From contig CM073196.1 in assembly GCA_037042915.1 (NCBI GenBank), positions 2,046,001 through 2,110,000 on the forward strand: DNA of 64,000 bases. The letters run 5' to 3'. This document shows, piece by piece, positions 12,656 to 20,043 of this stretch; the first letter of the stretch is position 1, and every line of letters starts with the position of its first letter. The stretch comes from Auricularia sp. M13. Its lineage: Eukaryota; Basidiomycota; Agaricomycetes; Auriculariales; Auriculariaceae. Made by a program: the position numbers and the translations under genes. The notes below the pieces were generated by a model that was not told the DNA's origin, ran no database searches, and was given only the letters and a program-made list of their open reading frames with translations.

Positions 12656-15600
12656 TCACTCCTCGTCGTACGCCAATATAATATCCGCATAATTTTCGAG
12701 CTCGTCGTCCGCCTCGCCCGCCTCCGTCGCCTGCCGCTTGGGCTTGGCCGGGGGCGACCGTGGGGAAGCGAGAGACTCCTTGCGCGCGTGCGACTCCTTG
12801 CGGGCGTGCATGCTCAGGCTCGACCCCTTGCGCGAATGCGTGCGCTTGGGCGTCCGGTCCTTCTCCGAGTCCGTCGTGTCCACCGTCGCCACTCCGTCGT
12901 CCACGACCTGCGGCACATGCTGCATCGACGGCGTGGCCTTGTGGAGGTAGCGCTTGCTGCGCACACGCGGTGCCTTCTGCAACAGGATCGACGTTTCCGG
13001 TACGCTGTCCGCACGTACGGTCTGCGAATCTTCTGACCGACGCCGCGACGACACCGCGGGCGCCCGCCGGATGGAGGTCTGCCGCACGCCGGCCCCGTCA
13101 GAGACGAAAGGATCGGGGTCGGTCGTGGTTGCGCCATGATGGTGCAGGGGCGCGATAGGTTCATCTTCCAGTTCAGCGATGGTGGCCGGCATTGTGACTG
13201 CGCGCTCATGCGCTGGAGCGGCTGGAGGGGGTGCGCTATCGGGCGGCGAATCAGGGACTGACACCATTTCCCAGCCCTTGCTCCGATGCGATGGCGACTC
13301 CTCCGGGGCTGCGGGCAGCTCCGGCGCAGTGACCGCGCTTTGCAGCGACGACCGCTGCGAGCGAGGTGTGCGACGCACCCCATACTCGGCCTCGGATTCA
13401 GAGGTCAGCGGGACACGATTAGGATACCCTCCACTGCGCCGCAGCGGCACGAAACGTCCACCATCGGACTCGTGCATCGGCGCAGGCGAACTAGAGCGCA
13501 CGACGGGCGACTGCAAGCTCGTCGAGACAGACGATACCGACGAACGCTGCGAGCTGCGCGGCTGGGAGTCACCCGAGCGTCGTACATGAGCCCAACGGTC
13601 ACCCGAGGGCGTCGGTGACCGCGAGCGGCCGAATTTGTCGGAGGCGTGATGAGCGAGTTGGCGTTGAGCCGCAACGGCTTGGGTCCAGTTTTCTTGGGCG
13701 TCGAGTTGGTCAACGCGGCGAAGGCGGCCTGGATGCTTTGGGCACGCGACATCGACTCGGGCGATGGCAGACCGGACGAAGTCGTCTTTGGCGACATCGG
13801 AGGCGGACTTGCGATGCCAGGCGGGGTGACACTCGGCTTGAAGAACTTTGGCCGCGGTGGAGGCACGTAGTCACCGTAATCTCGACCGAGCGGATAAGAG
13901 TTACGCTGGAAATCGTCGTGCTCCTCAGACCACCCATAACTATCCCGGCGTCCCCACGTGCTGAGCGAGCTGGCACGAGCATGTCCATCGTTGGGTTTCG
14001 CAGGCCCAGTACGAGATGTTAAAGCATCGACCGCTTTGATCCTCCAGTTGGTGCCCGCCTTGGCCAGAGTGGCAGCCGTGTCCGAGTCGCGCAGCCGTTC
14101 TGCATACGACCACAGGCTAGACACCGCAGTCTGCGACGAGTCCGTAGATGTGCGTGGTTCTGATGCAGTGTCCGACGGCGCAGATGGTGCTGAAGGCGTT
14201 GACGCGGCTCTTGGAGTCGTCAGAGTCTTCCACATTGACGCGGTGAGGCCAAATGTCCGCGCATTGGGAGTTTTGGCATTGTCGGCCTCCTCCTCGGCGC
14301 CTGACGTCTCCTGCACAGGCTGCAGCGACGGCGCTGTCAGACCCTTCCATAACCTGCTGCTCAGGCTACTAGCCGCTCCGTTCTGTTGAGCGGGCGGTGC
14401 TTTTACGGGATGGTGGTCAACGGGACTCTCGTCCTCCGTCTCGGTCTCGGAATCCAGTGCACTCAGACTTGGTCGACCCAACTTCAAGACTGTTTCGCGC
14501 AGGGTCTTGCCGATTGTTGAGGTCGTTGCTTTGGACGCTGTCGCTGGCAATGTAGGATCGGAAAACATGCCCGCACAACGCCGCATAGCGATATGCAGGG
14601 CAAAATCGATGATGTTCTCGATACCGGTCTCGTTAAGCGGGTAGCTCTGCATCAAGTGAATGGCCTGCATCATGGCCTCGGGATCCGGCGCGTCCAACGA
14701 CGCAGGCGCAGACTGTCCAGGGCATAGCCTAGAAAACCATTTAGAGATAGCTCAAAGGAACCGTTTTCCTAGACTTACCGCAGGAGGCGCGTGCGTTGTT
14801 TGACGAGCATGCTTGCACAAATGTCCACCAGGTACTCAATTTTTGGCATATTTCCCGCCTGTATCATCGGGCAGGTGAAAAGGGAATCCCAGATCAAGCA
14901 CGTTGCGGACAACGGGAAGGTGCTCGAAAGGATTGGGGTCAGCCATCGACTGCTGGAGTCAGTACCATTTTCTTGATGAGCATGAAGGCTCACAATGAAT
15001 AGTGAGGCAGAGCGGGACTGAGTCCGTGCCCGTCCTGCATGCGAAGTGAGGAATGGACATGAAAAGGCATTGAGAGAGCTTACAAGAGCGCCCAGTAGCT
15101 CAGGGTCCACCCATGAAAGTCGTTGAGCGATTGCGGCTCGCCAGCGGTCGCATCCCTCGTCCGTCCACAGGTCCGAGAACTCTGCTGAAACCTCTTCCAA
15201 CAACCAGAATGAGTCGGCCTCAACATGACACACATCTACATCGTCCGTGGTCTGGATCAGAGTCGAATAAATAGGGATGAGGATGGAAGGTAGATGCGAG
15301 GGCGGTGTCGAAGGATGTAAACATGTGTAGATGTAGAGCAGGCGTAGAATGGGCGTGGATGGGCTCGGTTCCGTCACAGGCGGTGTCGTGAGGGAAATTT
15401 GAGGAATATCCGTGGCATCTCCGTTGACTTGTATTTCTGGCTGTGGCCGACTATGACGATTCATGATCATCCACGCACGCTTGTCGACCTCAGTTGCACA
15501 ATCAATCCGAATGTCGTCTGCGGCCGAGGGATCGAAGGGGTTCAGAGGGGACTGGACAGGATGCTCCAGAGAGTCTGGCAGCATCCCAGGCAACGCTCTG

Positions 15601-16810
15601 GAGATGCTCAGCAAGCTTTGGTCTTGCGCGGACAACGGGCTTGCTGGCGCCGGCAGCCCTTGCAACCGAGTGAGCAGTCGTCGCGCGAGATCCTGTGTAT
15701 GGCAATGAGGTCCAGCATTCAATGTAGTTATTCTCAAGTCGCACATAGTATTCATCGCGTTTTCGTGAATTGTGCTCTTGCCATAGTGCGCGGTCGGCGG
15801 GCAACGTGTTTAGCATTAGCCTGCAGGTATTTTGTTAGATGACGGAATGGGCTCTAAGGACAGACTTGCCGCCATGATAACGGACGAACCCAAGGCGGAT
15901 CGTCAACCAGACCTGACGCCGTTAGCCTGGCCGAGCCGAAACATATTGCGTAGCACACCTTGAGCAGCAACGCGCCGCAGGATATTGAGGTCGACGACTT
16001 GAGGGGCATTCTCATCAAATAGCGCCGCCAGCCACATGAGCCTAACAACGCGACGATCAGGGAGTGCGAAACGCGACTGTGACAACACGCACTTGTCACG
16101 CGAAGACAACGGGGGATGCCAATCCAGGCCGCTGGCCAGGGCAATGCGCGCAAGATAGTCATCTATCTCTTGCCGAGGTGGTATGCGATCATCCAGGGCA
16201 CGGACAATCTGCAAGCAGCGCCTTGAGCTTCTGGCGGCTCGGCTGACGGAACGCTCACGATGTCGGGGACGCATGCCTGCGGGGCGTCTGCAATGGCGAC
16301 GGCAAAACTAGCGCCGTAGTGCTGCAGCAGATTGTCTCGCAGCGTGCGCAGCTCTGCAGATGAAGACATGAGCAGAGTTGTCCAGAGCGCTAGCCCGTGT
16401 GGTCGCGCACCCGGACAGTCTGTGCGCGGCGCCGAGTAGATGAGTGCGCACACGCTCTCGTATATGGGCGAGTCTGGCGTGAGCCTTGTTGTGGTGAGTT
16501 CTCCGAGCCGGTCGAGCAGTCCGCCGCAGTAAGAGCCCAGCAGCTCGTAGACGTCGCCGATGCCGTCCTCCTGCATAACGCGGCGGGTCTGCATGCGCGC
16601 GCCGTCGACATCGTTCTGCAGCAGCAGGTGGATGATGTGCTGGCGCTGCTCGCGCGAGGCGGCGTCCTTCTTTTCCAGGAGCGCCCCGAGGCTCTGAGCC
16701 GCCGCACGCAGCTGGGACTGCACCGAGCAGTGAGCACCGCGAATAACGGCCTAGAAATAAATGCTGCGGCGCACCTTGACCCGCTCTGGCTCCCAGTGCA
16801 TGCTGGCCAT
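12656..16810 (-). CDS. IST1-domain / degenerate TBC-domain protein, apparent fusion
   Basis: The ATG at 16810 gives MASMHWEPERVK, an intron, then SQLRAAAQSLGALLEKKDA, the start of an IST1 domain. The IST1 domain (Vps4 regulator of ESCRT-III) continues through ARMQTRRVMQEDGIGDVYEL and ESVCALIYSAPRT to RALDDRIPPRQEIDDYLARI (about residues 10-210). A 51-nt intron (16092-16042) leads in frame to LMWLAALFDENAP and the start of a TBC domain (LRRVAAQG, LNTLPADRALWQEHNSRKRD, VEADSFWLLEEV, and onward to about 14780). A tail of about 650 residues rich in Ser, Pro and Arg follows to 12656; a 41-nt intron near 13540 joins its two frames. TBC domains normally activate Rab GTP hydrolysis, but the arginine and glutamine fingers are not seen (I-R-I-D-C-A-T; no Y-x-Q-G-M). 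Alternative: two genes, with the TBC part starting at ATG 16037. No stop separates the parts. Confidence 0.65.
15821..15869 (-). other. GC-AG intron within the TBC domain
   Basis: The reading frame joins PLSWR to LMLNTLPADR only if a 49-nt intron with donor GCAAGT and acceptor CTGCAG is removed. GC-AG introns are a known minor class. This one falls inside a conserved stretch, so the junction is well fixed. Confidence 0.65.
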
Positions 16811-16955
16811 CGTGGCAGCGATCAAGGACGGGGTGAAGCGAGGGCTATGCGACAGCTAAGAAAGGAGCGTGCGGCAAGCCCGACAGCCGCTGGGCATCAA
16901 TCCAGCTCTCTCTTTCTTCCTCTATCACCGGCGAGCGTACAGCCGGCACGCAGCC

Positions 16956-17699
16956 ATGAGCGACCCGCCCAGCGAGCAGGACCCGCTGCTGCCTGCGTCT
17001 GGCGGCGAGGACGCTGCGGCAGGACAGGCGCTGTCGCGGCGCAGCCAGTCCAAGCAGTGGCTAGCCGAGCGGCTCGACTCGCGCGCCATGCACATTTCCG
17101 TGCTCGTCCTCGTCTTTGTAGACATCTCGATCGTAGTCGCCGACCTGTCATACACATTTCTCACAGAGCGCTGCCCGCCAGACACTGGTCCCAGCCCGCA
17201 GTGGCTGCACGTCCTGCAAATCGTCTCCCAGCTCATCACCACGCTCTTCCTGCTCGAAATTCCCCTCGAAATATGGGCATTTGGCTGGCACTTCTACAAC
17301 CCAGTCAGATTTCCCCTCCATGCCTTTGATATGGCAGTTATCATTGCAACATTCGCGTTCGAGATGGTGCGGCCGCGCGGCGCTCGCGCTCCTTCCGTTC
17401 CTCTGACGCGCGTTTCGAAAGGTGTTGTCTGGCAAAACGCGCGAAATCGCAGATCTCGTCGTGCTTCTCCGTTTGTGGCGTCTGGTGCGACTTGCGGGAG
17501 GTGCGCGTCGTGGACACCGCATGGGGTGCGCATAAACTCATGTCGCATGTCAGGGGTCGCTCTCGGTGTTGGCAAATTCCAGGAAGACGAACTGGCCGAC
17601 CTAAAGCTCGAGCTATCCGAGAAACGTCGTGAACTCGAGAGCACGCAGCAAGAACTCCAGCTGCTGCGCCAGCGGTTAAACGCACAAGGCACAGAGTAA
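16956..17699 (+). CDS. Voltage-gated proton channel (Hv1 family)
   Basis: Exons are 16956-17366, 17422-17500 and 17554-17699, giving 211 residues. After a polar N-terminus (MSDPPSEQDPLLPASG) comes a voltage-sensor domain without a pore module. S1 is ISVLVLVFVDISIVVADL, with the Asp at the place of human Hv1 D112. S2 is LITTLFLLEIPLEIWAFG, with a Glu like E153. S3 is LHAFDMAVIIATFAFEM, with an Asp like D174. S4 is ADLVVLLRLWRLVRLAGG, carrying the Hv1 signature R-x-W-R-x-x-R. A heptad-rich C-terminal helix from ELADLKLEL to LLRQRLNAQ would form the dimer coiled coil. Such channels release protons when the membrane depolarises. Introns of 55 and 53 nt have clear branch points. It starts 145 bp from the divergent IST1-TBC gene. 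Confidence 0.93.
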   Translation: MSDPPSEQDPLLPASGGEDAAAGQALSRRSQSKQWLAERLDSRAMHISVLVLVFVDISIVVADLSYTFLTERCPPDTGPSPQWLHVLQIVSQLITTLFLLEIPLEIWAFGWHFYNPVRFPLHAFDMAVIIATFAFEMVRPRGARAPSVPLTRVSKGVVWQNARNRRSRRASPFVASGATCGRCASWTPHGVRINSCRMSGVALGVGKFQEDELADLKLELSEKRRELESTQQELQLLRQRLNAQGTE

Positions 17700-17795: not shown

Positions 17796-20043
17796 TCACT
17801 CCTCTTTCCTACCGCCCTTCCCGGGCGACGAGGATTTGGCTGCCGTTGCTGCATCGGGTTTCTTGGGCAAGACGCGGAATCCTTTCGCCTTCCTTGCCTT
17901 CCGCAATCCCTCGGCGATGAGTTCTTTGTCCGCTGCATCGTCAAACTTGACCTCCTCCTCGTCCACATCCATCGCGTCGCCCGCGCCATCTTTGCCGTTA
18001 GCCTCAGCAGCCTCCTTCTTCTCCTGCTGCTTCGAGCGGGGCATAACCTTGAACTTGGCTACGAAGAAACCGTCCATGTTGTGCACATGTGGGTAGAACC
18101 GCCGCGTCAGGTTCAACTTGTCGCTGAACACCTTGCCGCGATACCGAGTGTAGCCCTCCCGGCCGAACTCGATACCTGTGGGAAGGAGGCGCACGTTCGG
18201 CCGCTTGCGCAGCGCGTAGTCGACCACCGCCTCGTTCTCGTCAACGGTGACAGAGCACGTCGAGTAGACCACGACGCCGCCAGTTTTGGAGTGAGAGTCA
18301 ACGCTGTCGATGGCGCACAGGATGAGCTGCTTTTGCAAATGCGAGAGCAAGGTGAAATCGCGTTCGGACTGCAATGATCGTCAGGCCGTGCTTCATGCAA
18401 GAGAATCAAGTAATGACTAACCTTGTTAACCTTGACACTCGGGTCTTTGCTGATGACGCCGGTACCACTGCAAGGCGCGTCGAGCAGCACGCGGTCAAAG
18501 CCACCCATAACCTTGGGGAACTCTCGTCCATCGTAGTTGCACACGACAACATTCTTGCAGCCGAGACGATGGATGTTCGCCGTTAAGCTCTTCGTCCGCG
18601 CTTTGTTGGCGTCGTTGGCGAACACCAGACCCGTGTTTTGCAGCAGAGCAGAAATGTATGTCGTCTTGCCGCCGGGCGCGGACGCCATGTCAAGTATCCG
18701 CTCGTTTGGCTGCGGCGAAAGGGCGATGACGGGAAGAAAAGACGACGCTGCTTGCAGCATGTAATGGCCGGCAAGATATTCGGGCGTCGCACCTGCGCGA
18801 TTGCTTAGAATTAGCAAAAAATTAAAGTGAAATAGGAAGTAAAAGAGATGTGGCACACCAATCGGCACCGAGCTCTCGAACACTTGCAGACCAACGTTAG
18901 TCCACTTGCCGATGGGCTCGAGATTGACACCTCTGTTTATCAGGGCTTGCGCGAGGTCTCTTCTACGGGTGCGCAATGTGTTCGTCCGTATCGTGACGGG
19001 ACGGGGAACCTCGTTCGCTTCAAAGAATTCAATCGCCTGGCCAGATGTGAGCATCAGTACTATACCAGCAATGGTCCCCATACCTCTGCGACCGGGAAAA
19101 TATGGAAAAGTTTTTCGGCAAGGAATTCGTTGTAGCCATAGTACGTCCCGATGTCGGCAATAATCTGCTCAACATATTCGGCACGCGACCTAGATTGAGC
19201 GAGATGAGCGAGAAGCAAGCCTATAATCTGGAGCAGCCAGCGCACCTGCCCTCCTGGCCGTATTTCTTGAAGTTGCTCAGGACGATGGCGCACGAGCGCA
19301 TGCGCTTGTACACTTCTTGGGGGTCCTCTGTCAAGGCGTCCTTGCGTTGCTCGGCAGTAGGCAAGTCAAATGGCTCGAAATCCTCGTCAAAATCGTCGTC
19401 GTCGTCCATGGCGCCTTCCTCTTCCGCGGCTTGCAGTTCGGCGGCAGCCAGCGCGGCCTCGCGCGCGCTTTTTGCGTCCAGTGCGCGCGACTTGGCTTCC
19501 ATGTTGCCGATCGTTACGCGCCCGTCCTCATCACCGCTCCCAGAATCGTTGGAGTCGTCTTCAGCGTCAAATGTCGCGTCGGGATTGGGGTCCTCGTCCT
19601 CGGACCAGTCGAACTGTTGTTGCGGCCCATTCTAAACAGGATATAAGCAGACACGAGTATCCACTGAGATGGCACTACCTGCAATAAATCGTCACTTTGA
19701 AGCGTCAGATAATGCGGAGAGCAAGATAAAGATGCACGCACTCGTCGCCAGAAAGCTCCTGAGCAGCGAAAGACTCGCTATAAAAACCGCAACTCTTTCA
19801 GCACTCAAAATGTGCAATGGGCGGAATGACACACAATCCTTCGTCGTCATCCTCGTCCGTGCCATCCGAGTCGCCAGCCACGGCTTTTTGCTTGCCCTTC
19901 ACCGGCTTGGATTTCTTCGCCGGCCGCTTGGGCAGCTCAGCGTCTGAGGCTTTGCGTTTCCCCTTACGCGCGGCAGAGCCAGTGTTGCTCGCGTCGAAGA
20001 GCGCGACGGGGTCTCCCTGCTTGTTCTTTGCGCGGCGGCCCAT
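17796..20043 (-). CDS. NOP2: 25S rRNA cytosine-C5 methyltransferase NOP2
   Basis: This nucleolar enzyme makes 5-methylcytosine in large-subunit rRNA and is needed for 60S assembly. The ATG at 20043 opens a basic Lys-rich nucleolar region ([19 protein letters not shown], then an acidic D/E stretch). The catalytic domain follows: [19 protein letters not shown], the SAM-binding loop [17 protein letters not shown] (about 18690), [19 protein letters not shown], and then the two cysteine motifs DAPCSGTG (about 18465) and [15 protein letters not shown] (about 18245). In this family the TCS Cys attacks the base and the PCS Cys assists release. [18 protein letters not shown] closes the domain, and a Lys/Glu-rich tail ends at 17796. 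It is convergent with the Hv1 gene (about 96 bp between stops). Confidence 0.93.

Follow-up and report, generated by a model that had tools for sequence, protein, structure and literature searches.

A probable single gene for an IST1-type core and a TBC1D13-like domain in Auricularia sp. M13

Does this locus of Auricularia sp. M13 encode an IST1 domain and a TBC-like domain in one protein, or have two neighbouring genes been joined by mistake? The locus lies in a stretch of 64,000 nucleotides, termed here the window (C4:2046001-2110000), within a 52.1-Mb genome of 14 contigs. All parts of the proposed gene are on the minus strand, where the IST1 and TBC peptides quoted in a first-pass annotation were also found. 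That annotation read 14770..16810 as an apparent fusion of the ESCRT-III regulator IST1 with a TBC domain. Judged from the sequence, a single IST1-TBC gene starting at ATG 16810 is the best reading of the locus, and we consider it probable. Both part families are known, and what may be new is that they are combined and that the TBC domain lacks both finger motifs. The first-pass annotation knew of no described IST1-TBC protein, and targeted searches of open-licence papers turned up no description of the combination, although such proteins may sit unremarked in public proteomes. A search of the same literature for IST1 together with Basidiomycota and ESCRT found nothing.

The gene was rebuilt by hand with GT-AG introns and one GC-AG intron. 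The proposed whole gene spans 12656..16810, as delimited by its spliced translation, Pfam matches, a coding-signal profile and a stop in the tail frame, and at least 10 introns interrupt its coding sequence, whose 3′ tail is uncertain. The IST1 module (16093..16810) is made of exons 16810-16775, 16717-16411, 16353-16259 and 16208-16093, and introns 16774-16718, 16410-16354, 16258-16209 and 16092-16042 belong to the IST1 part and the junction. The TBC1D13-like region (14729..16041) was recognized from TBC1D22B in the PDB, the Pfam TBC profile and a provisional human TBC1D13 sequence. The TBC part carries introns 15958-15913, 15869-15821 (GC-AG), 15744-15693, 15083-15035, 14993-14950 and 14778-14729. 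The rest of the TBC1D13-like part and a long serine/proline-rich tail, marked by the coding profile and the tail-frame stop, occupy 12656..14728. The start at 16810 thus stands as proposed in the first pass, but the gene continues well past 14770, through intron 14778-14729 and the tail to a probable stop at 12656.

Two of the TBC-part introns deserve comment. The GC-AG intron (15869-15821, minus strand, G/GCAAGT) is required to hold the TBC frame. For intron 14993-14950, an acceptor at 14953 was given up for the one at 14950, which yields a YSFRW block that presumably corresponds to FAFRW in the human protein. With acceptor 14950 the Pfam TBC match reaches 24.7 bits, compared to 19.0 and 21.9 bits for earlier products of other lengths. 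The older acceptor lies behind the exon coding scores, the own-genome search with the TBC segment, the Pfam scores of a 787-residue product and the TBC structure search reported below.

The N-terminal module contains a complete Ist1 domain. With a 57-nt intron removed, the 185-residue IST1 segment matches the Pfam Ist1 profile (PF03398) at 118.2 bits in one stretch, over profile positions 1-161 of 164, and a 526-residue product gives 114.6 bits, also in one stretch, against a cut-off of 33.6. When this intron (16354..16410) is retained, the match is 96.4 bits in two stretches, in the 787-residue product, whose length differs from that of the 526-residue one. The intron is in phase, lies within the IST1 domain and shares its codon and phase with an intron of a second IST1 gene described below. 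The first-pass call of an IST1 domain was right, but this intron had been overlooked. Human IST1 structures (3frs and others) were matched in a PDB search at E 3e-11, with a query still holding the 57 nt.

One further Ist1 locus was found in a genome-wide search, on contig C1 (C1:7192600-7193118). Its spliced product is 271 residues long and scores 199.4 bits against the Ist1 profile. The two IST1 proteins are 36.3% identical over 179 residues in an ungapped spliced alignment (E 4e-32), the figure of 28% obtained at another stage coming from a search that read through introns. Three introns are common to both genes in codon and phase, after codons 12 (phase 0), 114 (phase 1) and 146 (phase 0), and C1 IST1 has extra introns after codons 15, 88 and 196. 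Judged by these gene structures, the IST1 copy in the window arose by duplication at the DNA level and was kept intact. A retrocopy origin was rejected on account of the three shared intron positions.

The two IST1 copies differ at their C-terminal ends. It has been described that IST1 binds MIT proteins via two MIM elements (PMC9477494). C1 IST1, the separate full copy to which the window copy is second, ends with a MIM2-like LPDLP and a MIM1-like LTKRFEALK. In the window protein, a scan with strict MIM1-like and MIM2-like patterns found none, either across residues 1-886 or along the tail frame. A relaxed MIM1 pattern gave two matches, at residue 79 in the core, where C1 IST1 matches too, and at residue 258 in the TBC part. 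The window protein therefore has the core domain in common with IST1 but is without a detected MIM1/MIM2-like C-terminal tail and runs on into the TBC-like domain instead. If real, it would be an IST1 paralogue that gave up its MIT-binding tail.

The Ist1 domain and the TBC-like domain lie within one spliced frame. The last IST1 exon contains no stop, and if it is left unspliced the next stop of its frame comes at about 15903, within the TBC coding sequence. The frame across the junction is free of stops for 882 codons to 13660 when spliced and for 899 codons with 16092-16042 retained, which bears out the first-pass observation that it stays open either way. However, this openness is less telling than it had seemed. 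The stretch 16115-15960 is open in two frames out of three, the IST1 frame included. Dinucleotide shuffling, repeated 2000 times, left any one frame free of stops for 78 nt in 54% of cases and for 210 nt in 17.7%, rates that stand before the one-in-three for matching frames. Frame openness as proof of fusion was dropped after this shuffle test.

Coding signal at the junction was scored with a profile trained on 3,994 codons from 11 other long open reading frames of the window. The best coding frame is unchanged from 16180 to 15980 in all the scoring intervals listed, and the modelled frame scores best in 10 of 11 exon stretches, the exception being an exon of 41 nt. With the junction intron retained, its coding score is slightly positive, at 2.2.

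The candidate junction intron itself (16042..16092, 51 nt, phase 2, after codon 184) reads GTGCGT...TTAG and has a CTGAT branch-like site, and it fits in phase as had been proposed. No counterpart position was found for it in C1 IST1. Its splice score was computed from 15 other introns, all hand-placed, of which nine belong to the IST1-TBC gene and six to C1 IST1. The score of 11.94 is the sixth lowest of the 16 introns (range 6.44-18.04); about two GT-AG pairs in each kb of the window score at least as high, as do four within the spliced coding sequence. Among 66 donor/acceptor pairs around the junction, the three with the highest scores all lead into the TBC part: 15958-15913 with the junction intron retained, one pair inside the TBC part, and then 16092-16042, which is the best of the 66 with its donor in the spacer.

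Several arrangements other than one fused gene could underlie these observations. Two tightly packed genes may have been wrongly joined, one encoding a second IST1 whose end comes from an alternative splice or falls within the TBC sequence, and the other a TBC1D13 that starts at an internal ATG (16035..16037). We regard this as unlikely, though the joined-genes alternative raised in the first pass keeps some weight beside the one-frame gene model, which is the best supported on present sequence evidence. A TBC1D13 protein would be expected to begin near ATG 16037: a PLNP motif lies 115 residues from M16037, to be compared with P101-L102 in the human protein (PMC12311110). At positions -3 and +4 this ATG has C and T, compared to A and G at ATG 16810 and T and C at the start of C1 IST1. 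Start context was accordingly dropped as an argument for fusion, since the C1 IST1 start is no better than ATG 16037. Splices that give a stop also exist: nine of the best 14 of the 66 pairs do so, the highest-scoring being 15917-15821, inside the TBC part, at 11.43 versus 11.94, and 16092-15998 (9.79) leads those listed stop-giving pairs whose donor lies in the spacer. However, the top spacer-donor splice yields the fusion, and the IST1 ends found in the splice tables fall within TBC coding sequence. The spacer from the IST1 core to ATG 16037 is moreover only about 75 nt, in which a 3′ end together with a promoter would hardly fit.

It is also conceivable, although improbable in our estimate, that both forms are made: a fused transcript and, begun at the internal ATG, a product with the TBC part alone, by way of an internal promoter or of leaky or re-initiated translation. 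Agaricomycete read-through transcripts offer a comparison. As described in one study, read-through RNAs join neighbouring genes in several agaricomycetes, and in Plicaturopsis crispa 717 of 9,073 transcribed loci (7.9%) are in such transcripts, the co-transcribed genes also being transcribed on their own (PMC4503453). The present locus resembles these cases in its neighbouring frames on the same strand, which could be carried on one RNA. In the published pairs, several stops in all frames separate the open reading frames at a mean spacing of 364 nt, whereas here a single frame is open across about 75 nt. An assembly or sequencing indel at the junction, putting two frames in register by accident, is very improbable: an unexplained frame change near 13600 in the same gene speaks for it, but the best coding frame is constant across the junction.

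The second module appears TBC1D13-like. In a search of solved structures, the segment from M16037 matches TBC1D22B best (6d0s, E 2e-8), followed by TBC1D22A and Gyp1. The Pfam RabGAP-TBC match of 24.7 bits (E 2.2e-5) is just below the cut-off of 25.2 and covers only the second half of the domain, profile positions 106-214 of 216. No match was found in NCBIfam. Against the provisional human TBC1D13 sequence, the segment scores 63.5 bits at 22.7% identity over 353 columns, compared to a maximum of 26.9 bits in 200 shuffles, TBC1D13 being the one human TBC protein scored in this way. The likenesses to TBC1D13 are the PLNP in the N-terminal part and the EADxF and RWL...IWDSLF blocks. The differences are the missing IxxDxxR and YxQ motifs, the long tail and the position behind IST1. 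In a MAFFT alignment, which is poor over the domain's first half, the PLNP is not opposite the human HPLNP. Human TBC1D13 is a Rab35 GAP whose HPL motif (P101-L102) binds the retromer subunit VPS29 (PMC12311110). TBC1D22 and Gyp1, which belong to the RabGAP class, resemble the window protein in the TBC-like domain and give the top sequence match among solved structures, but another locus of the same genome, L004, is closer to them by eye, with IEIDVPRT and YVQGIND. In the own-genome search, the TBC segment matches no locus but its own.

Neither of the finger motifs IxxDxxR and YxQ was found in a pattern scan of the 345-residue TBC segment, in which the position of the Gln finger is aligned with S or H. 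As a control, six frames of 11 loci in the same genome, which represent 8 separate TBC places among the roughly 11 listed, were scanned with the stricter patterns IxxDxxR[TL] and YxQG; introns split these control genes, so that absences among them are not firm. Both motifs occur in one frame at four of the eight other TBC places (L004, L005, L010 and L014), and L007 has both in two frames. L006 has YxQG only, the C9 place (L009/L011/L013) has IxxDxxR only, and L008 has neither, given the stricter patterns and the interrupting introns. Because these three places miss motifs too, a motif that a mechanical scan fails to find need not have been lost. The TBC-domain exons of L006 (C5) and L007 (C10) look nearly identical, and a recent duplication is possible.

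Ordinary GAP activity of the TBC half is doubtful on these sequence features, because both IxxDxxR and YxQ are absent and the Pfam score falls just under the cut-off. It is more likely that this half would serve as a non-catalytic Rab-binding or scaffold domain. The first-pass proposal that the chain is linked to Rab control is only partly supported, because neither finger motif was found in the TBC segment. If real, the protein would be a TBC1D13 that works without GAP chemistry.

A mechanism can be proposed from these features. One mRNA and one two-module trafficking protein would be made from ATG 16810. The N-terminal module would be a paralogue of IST1 with the ESCRT-III-type core retained but no counterpart of the MIT-binding tail, which binds VPS4, for example. 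The second would be the only TBC1D13-like domain detected in the genome, with both catalytic finger motifs missing. The IST1 core might then dock the protein on ESCRT-III (CHMP1-type) polymers or on endosomal tubules, while the TBC-like part might bind a Rab, retromer or both, acting as a scaffold and not as a GAP. This specific scaffold function is put forward tentatively. It is perhaps the case, and we advance the idea with equal caution, that in a fungal lineage a duplicated IST1 came to serve as targeting arm for a non-catalytic TBC1D13, with a Rab-binding pseudo-GAP in place of the MIT-recruiting tail. If this is true, the state of ESCRT-III polymers and the identity of a Rab, perhaps also of retromer, would be read by one chain at the endosome.

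If the gene is real and expressed, one protein would carry an ESCRT-III-type core in direct linkage with a Rab-binding domain. The same TBC1D13 source describes the retromer retrieval sub-domains of endosomes as physically separate from the ESCRT-marked degradative ones (PMC12311110). Given that description, a natural IST1-TBC fusion would be a lead to a functional link between the two. Among prokaryotic and viral contigs, the TBC segment gave 24 and 1 pattern matches, respectively, with no confirmed relative, and the IST1 segment gave 12 pattern matches among viral contigs, again with no confirmed relative.

Downstream of the TBC1D13-like region, the best coding frame of the tail changes between about 13640 and 13580 on the minus strand. 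Fourteen candidate introns, such as 13602-13562 and 13602-13547, would join the tail frames, and none of them is compelling. Were the tail joined by one of these, the predicted length of the fused protein would be roughly 1,200 residues. The change may reflect either an intron or an assembly indel, and the sequence of the IST1-TBC gene may carry an error at this point. The junction is not touched by it.

Upstream, about 144 nt lie between ATG 16810 and a divergent ion-channel-like frame, compared to the roughly 75 nt of the spacer before ATG 16037. This neighbour (16860-17699, plus strand) has a weak Ion_trans match, at 21.5 bits against a cut-off of 25, and is possibly a voltage-sensor protein (Hv1-like). 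Beyond it, at 17796-19168 on the minus strand, lies an RsmB/F-type rRNA methyltransferase gene, which scores 93.5 and 146.4 bits in two frames and which we take to be NOP2/NSUN-like.
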